From contig CALUWB010000010.1 in the NCBI GenBank assembly GCA_944324375.1, positions 1 through 43,506 of the forward strand: a stretch of DNA of 43,506 bases, read 5' to 3'. The notes beneath the pieces were generated by a model. It was not told the origin of the DNA and searched no databases. It saw only the letters and a program-made list of their open reading frames with translations. How positions within the stretch are numbered: the first letter of the stretch is position 1; each line of letters starts with the position of its first letter. Shown here piece by piece: positions 41,565 through 43,506 of this stretch. The position numbers and the translations under genes are program-made. The DNA comes from Candidatus Gastranaerophilales bacterium (GTDB lineage Bacteria > Cyanobacteriota > Vampirovibrionia > Gastranaerophilales > Gastranaerophilaceae).

Positions 41565-41654
41565 GTATTATGAACTCAAACTCATCCTGTAATTAGTAAA
41601 CAAATATAAGGTGTAAAAAGCTTAAGATTAAATCAATTATTTATAGATAATGTA

Positions 41655-41682
41655 TTGAAAAATATGAAAAATATGTTAAAAT
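41655..41682 (+). promoter_or_regulatory. Promoter of the DUF3800 leader RNA
   Basis: TTGAAA (41655-41660), a 16-base spacer and TAAAAT (41677-41682) place the transcription start at the first base of the leader hairpin, near 41688. Confidence 0.55.
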
Positions 41683-41687
41683 ATAAA

Positions 41688-41748
41688 TGGGCTGGTCGTA
41701 ATGACCTCGGTCCACCACGGCAGGTGTTATACCTGCCTTTTATATTTT
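41688..41748 (+). ncRNA. Structured leader RNA of the DUF3800 gene
   Basis: Two stacked hairpins precede the gene. The first (41688-41714) has an outer stem TGGGC/GGTCCA and inner stem GGTC-GTAAT-GACC. The second (41719-41737) is GGCAGGT-GTTAT-ACCTGCC, followed by TTTTATATTTT, a terminator-like end. DUF3800 genes are known to carry diverse conserved RNA motifs upstream (the DUF3800-I to -XI candidates), and this fits that idea, although I cannot match a specific class. It might attenuate DUF3800 expression or act with its product. Confidence 0.65.
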
Positions 41749-41766
41749 CAGAGAAAGGATTCTTTG

Positions 41767-42476
41767 TTGACAGATTTAAGTATTTTTATCGATGAATCAG
41801 GGGATTTTGGTGACTATCAAGATTATTGCCCTTTTTATATTATTTCTTTAGTTTTTCATGAACAAAATAACTTAATTAATTCTCAGGTTAAAAAACTTGA
41901 TGATTTTCTAATTCAGTGTAACCTTAAAAATCATAATATCCATACGGCTCCACTTATACGAAAAGAAAAGAGCTATAAAAATATGGATATTAATATTAGA
42001 AGTAAACTATTCAAACAATTATTTAATTTTATAAGAAATGTTAATATAACTTATAAAACAATAGTTGTTGATAAAAGAATATATAAGAATCAAGTTGATA
42101 TAATAAAAGTAATTACCAAAGAATTATCTTCTTTTTAAGAGAGAATTATACTTATTTTAATCAATTTGAAAATATTATAATTTATTATGATAATGGTCAA
42201 ATTCAGTTAACAAAAACATTAATTGCAATTTTTGGTGCAATGTTTGGTGAAAACATTGAATTTAGGGCTATAGAACCGAATAATTATAAATTATTTCAGT
42301 CAGCAGATTTAATATGTACATTAGCTTTGATAAAAAATAAATTATTATCAGGTAAAGATTTAACAAATTCTGAAGAAAAATTTTTTGGTTCAGTTTCAAA
42401 ATTAAGAAAAAATTATCTTAAATTTTTTGAAAAAATTGAATTTGATAAAAGAATAAAACAAAATTCTTTTTTCTGA
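41767..42476 (+). pseudogene. DUF3800 protein gene with a one-base frameshift
   Basis: The start is TTG 41767, with AAAGGA 7 bases upstream; an earlier ATG at 41701 lies in the leader RNA and is rejected. Residues after it read LSIFIDESGDFGDY, the DUF3800 N-terminal signature with its acidic residues (RNase H-like fold). The frame stops with TAA at 42136-42138, straight after the run TTCTTTTT. Adding one T restores a continuous frame that passes through IIIYYDNGQI and LFQSADLICTLAL (the family QxADL end) to 42476. This is either a real mutation, an assembly error in a T-run, or -1 slippage on TTT-TAA. The full product is ~236 aa. Confidence 0.75.
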
Positions 42477-42484
42477 TTATTCTT

Positions 42485-43159: not shown

Positions 43160-43435
43160 ATGTCAAAAACTATTCAAATTCGTGTTGATGATGTCTTAAA
43201 AAAAACAGCTGATGAATTATTCTTAAGTTTAGGACTTGATACAAGTACAGCAATTAGAATTTTTTTAACAATGGCAGTAGAAACAGGTGGAATCCCGTTT
43301 GATGTAAAAATTCCTAATACATCCTTAAAACAATCAATGTTAGATGTGATAAATAGAAAAAATTTAAGTCCACGATATAAAACAGCAGAAGGAGCACATA
43401 GCACCACTGGCGCTGTGTGCTCCTTCTGCTGTTAG
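43160..43435 (+). CDS. RelB/DinJ-type antitoxin, truncated by a sequence junction
   Basis: The first ~78 residues are a ribbon-helix-helix antitoxin of the RelB/DinJ family: SKTIQIRVDDVLKKTADELF, LGLDTSTAIRIFLTMAVETGGIPF, then the toxin-binding end with NRKNLSPRYKTAE. In relatives this continues as an acidic helix and the toxin gene follows. Here the last ~13 residues (GAHSTTGAVCSFCC) do not fit and derive from the foreign hairpin sequence from ~43378 on. The gene is therefore broken at its 3' end and no toxin gene is visible. A GAGG site precedes the ATG. Confidence 0.8.
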   Translation: MSKTIQIRVDDVLKKTADELFLSLGLDTSTAIRIFLTMAVETGGIPFDVKIPNTSLKQSMLDVINRKNLSPRYKTAEGAHSTTGAVCSFCC

Positions 43436-43506
43436 AAAACGCTTGTGTCAGGTCCGCTCCAGAATCTCCTCGCAGGCGGTCTGCAGAGCGGGAATGTCCT
43501 CATTCA
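43378..43506 (-). other. Foreign GC-rich end: gene tail plus terminator (contig chimera)
   Basis: From about 43378 base composition rises sharply. Read on the minus strand the end shows a C-terminal reading frame (about NEDIPALQTACEEILERT, then stop near 43448) and a strong terminator hairpin (AGCAGAAGGAGCACA pairs with TGTGCTCCTTCTGCT over ~20 bases, then GTTTTAT). Thus a foreign gene end meets the antitoxin gene at a microhomology around AAAACAGCAGAAG. A metagenome misassembly is the likeliest cause. Confidence 0.65.

Follow-up and report, generated by a model that had tools for sequence, protein, structure and literature searches.

RNA motifs lying in front of DUF3800 genes have been catalogued, and we know of no function assigned to any of them. 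One such locus, close to the end of a contig of Candidatus Gastranaerophilales whose 43,506 nucleotides are referred to here as the window, raises the question of what an RNA of roughly 50 bases, placed immediately 5' of a predicted nuclease gene, may do. The initial annotation had described a promoter setting the start of transcription at a two-part hairpin, a strong terminator-like second hairpin and a TTG-started DUF3800 gene, and all three were borne out (Table 1). The promoter position places the predicted start at approximately 41688-41690, the first base of hairpin 1; in Gastranaerophilales-type relatives the -10 box begins 11-14 nt 5' of the RNA. Hairpin 1 consists of an outer stem of 6 bp and an inner stem of 4 bp with a 2-nt bulge on the 3' side, and the linker CCAC joins it to hairpin 2, at which an intrinsic terminator was found (1 site vs 0.1 expected). 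The folding energy of 41688-41741 was -24.8 kcal/mol, compared with -14.6 +/- 2.7 for shuffled sequences (z -3.75), none of the 200 shuffles being as stable. Moreover, a promoter directly 5' and a terminator 3' of the RNA were present in every lineage inspected. The gene starts 30 nt 3' of hairpin 2, with an alternative in-frame TTG at 41764, and its 5' part matches PF12686 with 28.4 bits, above the Pfam cut-off of 21.

Table 1. Coordinates of the features discussed (window positions unless a record is named)
Feature	Position	Strand	Details
Sigma-70-type promoter	41655-41682	+	TTGAAA-16-TAAAAT, extended TG; -10 spacing as in Gastranaerophilales-type relatives
-35 box	41655-41660	+	TTGAAA
-10 box	41677-41682	+	TAAAAT; spacer 16 nt
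DUF3800-XI RNA (RF02975), whole element	41688-41737	+	Rfam 30.6 bits; own covariance model R1 67.7 bits (window copy belongs to the R1 training set)
Hairpin 1	41688-41714	+	Outer stem UGGGCU/GGUCCA, bulge UC, inner stem GGUC/GACC, loop GUAAU
Hairpin 2, intrinsic terminator	41719-41741	+	GGCAGGTG/TACCTGCC + TTTT
Ribosome binding site	41752-41758	+	AGAAAGG, from sequence
DUF3800 gene, 5' part	41767-42138	+	TTG start; FIDESGDFG motif; PF12686, E 3.1e-6
DUF3800 gene, 3' part	42139-42476	+	Out of frame; YYDNGQ and QSADLICT motifs
Presence/absence cassette (promoter, RNA, DUF3800)	41566-42480	+	About 0.9 kb; junctions approximate
RelB-type antitoxin ORF, near contig end	43160-43435		
Cow-rumen-3 RNA (RF03083), near phage tRNA genes	L337:549-692; L344:5352-5474		

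Further downstream, positions 43381-43506 have a G+C content of 56% (window, 30%) and open with a perfect inverted repeat (AACAGCAGAAGGAGCACA..TGTGTGCTCCTTCTGCTGTT), which lies within the RelB-like ORF. This end of the contig is probably chimeric or foreign, and no partner toxin of the RelB-type ORF is visible before it.

As regards the identity of the RNA, an Rfam scan of the window at the gathering cut-off returned zero matches, while at a relaxed threshold the best match was DUF3800-XI (RF02975), over its full length, with 30.6 bits (E 2e-4) against a cut-off of 37.8. Relatives in the genome family of the window score similarly (28.5-34.9 bits), and those collected by protein or core pattern pass the cut-off with 47.9-72.9 bits, the highest value being reached in Clostridia. 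All 10 hairpin 1 pairs of RF02975 form in the window, around the same 2-nt bulge (UGGGCUGG..GGUCCACC); the two-helix structure, the core sequence and the place upstream of a DUF3800 gene are common to both, and window RNA and accepted members form a continuum in one covariance model. In addition, another Candidatus Gastranaerophilales record (L069) carries the RNA of G052, which belongs to the family of the window. The RNA is a divergent, Gastranaerophilales-type lineage of DUF3800-XI. The initial annotation had left the choice between a new and a divergent class and had suggested a search with the DUF3800-I to -XI covariance models; the search settled for divergence, and a new class was rejected, given the full-length fit of DUF3800-XI. 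No other Rfam DUF3800 class was found at the relatives' other DUF3800 loci, and the abiF RNA (RF03085) gave no match in the Rfam scans. To the published family the present work adds a further hairpin (hairpin 0), phage copies free of DUF3800, and copies before other defence genes. Hairpin 1 also resembles the alanine acceptor helix (G3.U70, A73, CC). Mimicry of tRNA-Ala or tmRNA was rejected, since among loci collected via the protein the G3.U70 pair becomes G-C (L251) or A-U (L263) and AUC replaces ACC (L243, L246, L250), so that alanine identity is not conserved.

Covariation among homologous leaders, on which the initial annotation had made its reading depend, is present. Because pattern scans fix the hairpin core, core conservation was assessed only on alignment A2, comprising 21 leaders collected by relatedness or via the protein and aligned by MAFFT without structure. 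In this alignment 96% of the cells pair, 31 cells are changed on both sides (7.6 in shuffles), and every slid structure collapses. The compensatory changes sit in the inner stem of hairpin 1 and in hairpin 2. The outer stem hardly varies, with G.U, A-U and G-C at pair 4, as would be expected from recognition by a protein. That the leader might be functionless and of an ordinary terminator-like kind, as hairpin 2 and its U tract, an intrinsic terminator, could suggest, is hardly credible: covariation, Rfam membership, the nearly invariant outer stem and the phage copies described below all contradict it.

The RNA is also tightly linked to one clade of DUF3800. A profile search (A1) of 386 relatives in the phylum gave 9 unbroken loci of the window's clade, all 9 with the RNA, and viral loci of this clade collected by protein likewise carry it. 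Conversely, 10 of the 12 RNA copies in the host phylum precede a DUF3800 gene, the exceptions being those of G150 and G297; in the latter (L283 1501-2466) 80 nt separate the RNA from a convergent gene that is DUF3800-like but belongs to a different clade (YIDESGE). Distances between RNAs and between proteins are correlated (Mantel r 0.72, a value reached by 0 of 2000 permutations), as joint inheritance would lead one to expect. A sister DUF3800 clade (about 194 bits) has a leader of the same layout, its outer stem being AGACU/GGUCU and its hairpin 2 almost the same. This leader (AGACU..GGUCU plus a GGCGGGG hairpin; L268-L271, L274 and L275) is uncatalogued and could become a new Rfam entry; no phage copies of it were found. 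In pattern-selected Clostridia loci, 36 of the 49 DUF3800-linked copies have hairpin 0 ahead of hairpin 1 (10.9 expected from shuffles), and the stems of hairpin 0 differ between copies yet keep pairing. A -10-like hexamer lies just 5' of it in many of them, so there too the transcript probably starts at the first helix. In two loci of the GGTCCATC subclass, L310 and L309, an extra hairpin (AGATGGGGAGGTTCCCCATC) separates hairpin 1 from the terminator.

In the window the DUF3800 gene is frameshifted, with a stop at 42136-42138 and the remainder in another frame; at the same locus of G003 the ortholog is intact and open over 265 aa. An AlphaFold2 model of the protein (pLDDT 92.6), compared with the PDB by Foldseek, matched RNase HII/HIII first, with E values from 3.8e-7 to 8.8e-4 at a TM of about 0.4, the best match being RNase HII (E 3.8e-7, TM 0.42). 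D9, E10, D142 and D181 are invariant across 21 DUF3800 proteins, and on this modelled basis an RNase-HII-like fold with a D-E-D-D set is predicted. The D-E-S-G motif recalls the D-E-A-G of RNase HII, and the acidic residues are invariant; the proteins differ from RNase HII/HIII, their nearest solved fold, in the low TM, in the lack of a sequence match and in the linked RNA. An RNase H fold of DUF3800 had been noted earlier (PMC10910872; PMC12669027). PADLOC, NCBIfam and PDB sequence searches made no call of DUF3800 as a toxin or defence protein.

The sister species G007 and G005 align to the window up to 41565 and again from 42481, with 92-96% identity and some 68 nt between; as these flanks are nearly joined, promoter, RNA and gene constitute a presence/absence cassette. 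Further copies were sought by pattern in genomes and viral contigs, and the hits were re-scored with a covariance model, in which real copies reach 35 bits or more and noise does not exceed 26. The census, in which genome completeness varies, gave at least 99 assessable copies, at least 63 linked to DUF3800 (61 after removal of two duplicated viral loci) and at least 36 solitary, without DUF3800. Among the matches listed, 48 of the 56 linked copies with enough DNA have an intact gene and 8 a broken one; the RNA thus persists where the gene breaks, at these 8 loci as well as in the window. Several copies may occur in one genome, with as many as 9 matches if fragments are included, many of them broken. 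Copies within one genome are about 64-76% identical and so do not stem from recent transposition, and they share flanks only in one tandem duplication. The latter, at L262/L273 (G264), spans 2.2 kb of RNA and DUF3800 that are 99-100% identical. A hairpin of a mobile element or recombination site (REP/attC-like), with DUF3800 as transposase or recombinase, would suit the RNase-H-type fold, the multiple and often broken copies and the presence or absence of the cassette. It was rejected as very improbable, given the divergence of the paralogs, the absence of shared ends and of a second copy at the other end, and the retention of compensatory RNA changes, promoter and terminator.

Solitary copies show that the RNA is found beyond this gene. 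Among the matches listed, 19 are bacterial copies in named genomes, 14 of which lack a DUF3800 of the clade; the RNA may have another partner there, and incomplete genomes could explain part of the absence. Hairpin 0 is not recognisable in about half of the solitary bacterial copies. A defence-type gene, matching PADLOC, adjoins 8 of the 19 solitary copies, compared with 2 of 20 genes flanking linked loci, a small control (Fisher p 0.03). The neighbours are AbiLi (three times), AbiEi, DUF3644/PDC-S19, MNT/PDC-S09, PDC-S01 and SIR2/PDC-S25, the last on the strand opposite to the RNA. The PADLOC models are broad in scope, homology to another AbiLi was the ground for scoring L116, and three matches were left out by judgement as generic domains (mad2 at L097 and, among the controls, a sigma-54 regulator and a radical-SAM protein). 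At seven loci (L106, L116, L148, L132, L113, L110 and L043) the RNA lies directly upstream, on the same strand, of genes for AbiLi (three), AbiEi, DUF3644, an MNT nucleotidyltransferase and AAA/DUF4143; L106 and L116 share the RNA and about 90 nt 3' of it, their AbiLi proteins being divergent. On such grounds hairpin 1 could be taken as a signal of a general kind, recognised or processed by a host RNA-binding protein or RNase and common to DUF3800 leaders, other defence leaders, gene 3' ends and phage tRNA arrays, with DUF3800 as one client. The enrichment of defence neighbours and the nuclease-free solitary genomes favour this reading; nevertheless, the predominance of DUF3800 beside the RNA, in the census among the matches listed and in the host phylum, together with the joint divergence of RNA and protein, make it unlikely.

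Phages carry the RNA as well. Comparison of flanks distinguished about eight independent phage lineages with the RNA and free of DUF3800, with one hairpin copy in each record, and terminase, portal and tail families confirm the phage origin of several of these records. In three lineages (L170/L209, L182/L214/L222 and L241) the copy stands in a tRNA array, and in two of these a tRNA follows it after 4-6 nt. Elsewhere the copy is followed by terminase-type genes (L183/L225/L239, L238/L242) or has other surroundings (L237, L240, L177). No DUF3800 was detected in any of 12 phage records, including ones of 126, 139, 183 and 184 kb, which may be incomplete, while a positive control was detected. In several phage copies hairpin 2 keeps its pairing by a different sequence and has no U tract; hence hairpin 2 is not only a terminator. 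Of 7 real viral copies of the GGTCCATC subclass, 6 are linked to DUF3800, so most of the solitary phage copies are of the GGTCCACC subclass. A search of INPHARED with the 51-nt RNA gave no match, plasmids gave chance-level matches only, and the clade of DUF3800 proteins gave one partial match in named phages and one in plasmids.

A second RNA family leads to the same hairpin. The 3'-terminal hairpin of cow-rumen-3 (RF03083) is hairpin 1 of DUF3800-XI, 2-nt bulge included; unlike DUF3800-XI, cow-rumen-3 measures 141 nt and has further hairpins 5'. The window scores 22.2 bits against RF03083, below the cut-off of 86.7, and only the 3' hairpin matches well. In the present analysis cow-rumen-3 turned up solely in phage records that lack DUF3800, close to tRNA genes: a member of 121 bits in a record of 182,655 bases and a weaker one within an array of 12 tRNAs. 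Among the papers searched, none discusses this link. New here are the copies without DUF3800, among them those in phages and those ahead of other defence genes.

These observations bear on two further alternatives. In the first, the leader would act in cis only, as a two-hairpin attenuator limiting or autoregulating DUF3800 mRNA, and would have no role in trans. The order of promoter, hairpin, terminator and gene fits this, as do the solitary copies upstream of defence genes on the same strand. Nevertheless, the tRNA-array phage copies lack a U tract, stand before no gene that could be attenuated and keep both stems, hairpin 1 is retained as the last element of cow-rumen-3, and the outer stem is conserved in sequence beyond the needs of attenuation; we regard this explanation as improbable, if slightly less so than that of a general signal. 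In the second, the RNA would be a cofactor or scaffold required by the nuclease, an RNA-dependent effector instead of an inhibited one. Strict linkage and co-divergence agree with it, and DUF3800 proteins accompany some CRISPR effectors (PMC10910872, PMC12669027). All copies lack a variable guide segment, however, and the RNA occurs in nuclease-free phages and in bacteria whose gene is broken or absent, so that this too is unlikely, a shade more so than a general signal.

The reading we prefer, at about an even chance, is that of a trans-acting RNA inhibitor of the RNase-H-fold nuclease DUF3800, with the phage copies as antidotes. It is drawn by analogy, since the layout resembles those of abiF/RCd22 and ToxIN: the abiF/RCd22 RNA binds AbiF directly and neutralises this toxin both in cis and in trans (PMC12373285), and phage phiTE carries mimics of the ToxI antitoxin (PMC3475682). 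It is favoured by the linkage of RNA and gene, the RNA's own start and stop, covariation, co-divergence, the predicted nuclease fold, the survival of the RNA beside broken genes and the phage copies lacking DUF3800. A single promoter would make a short, abundant, structured RNA, most transcripts ending at hairpin 2, and rare read-through would give little nuclease mRNA, keeping the RNA in excess over the nuclease. The DUF3800-XI RNA would thus serve as a specific RNA antitoxin of the DUF3800 encoded behind it, holding the nuclease inactive through bound hairpin 1 (outer stem and bulge). The nuclease would be freed when the RNA drops, for example as a phage shuts down host transcription, and phages carrying hairpin 1 alone, several in tRNA arrays, would bring an antidote. 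Expression, RNA-protein binding, toxicity, release during infection and the antidote role are what we infer within this scheme. The earlier proposal of one arm of a DUF3800-RNA defence or regulatory pair gains support from strict linkage, covariation and co-divergence, and also from phage copies without DUF3800 and from copies ahead of other defence genes.

The likeness to known systems has its limits. With abiF/RCd22 (RF03085; PMC12373285) the locus shares promoter, small structured RNA, terminator and protein gene, but AbiF is an Abi_2 (HEPN/Cas13-related) toxin and its RNA is different, with two motif copies. With ToxIN (PMC3475682) it shares the layout of RNA, terminator and nuclease and the phage-borne antitoxin mimics, whereas ToxIN has tandem RNA repeats and an endoribonuclease of the ToxN fold. 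In fact, of the features of type III toxin-antitoxin (TA) systems, the common promoter and the terminator between RNA and nuclease gene are present; every leader read has a single unit in place of tandem repeats, and the predicted fold is RNase-HII-like instead of ToxN/AbiQ. Lacking the repeats and the ToxN fold, the system is not filed under type III, even if it would work like one. More tentatively, and somewhat short of an even chance, DUF3800-XI may be the RNA antidote to an anti-phage nuclease of RNase-HII fold, carried by unrelated large phages, several with tRNA arrays, as counter-defence, alone or fused into cow-rumen-3, and constitute a protein-RNA TA kind separate from ToxIN and AbiF. 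The main weakness lies in the solitary bacterial copies in nuclease-free genomes, and the set of partners may be wider. Against the preferred reading also count the silence of PADLOC, NCBIfam and PDB sequence searches on DUF3800, the single RNA unit and the solitary bacterial copies in which hairpin 0 is not recognisable.

Two orphan RNA families, DUF3800-XI and cow-rumen-3, are tied together by a common hairpin and by phage tRNA arrays. If the proposed mechanism is true, the antidote role may extend to other DUF3800 RNA classes, and RNA-based counter-defence could be sought in phage tRNA arrays.
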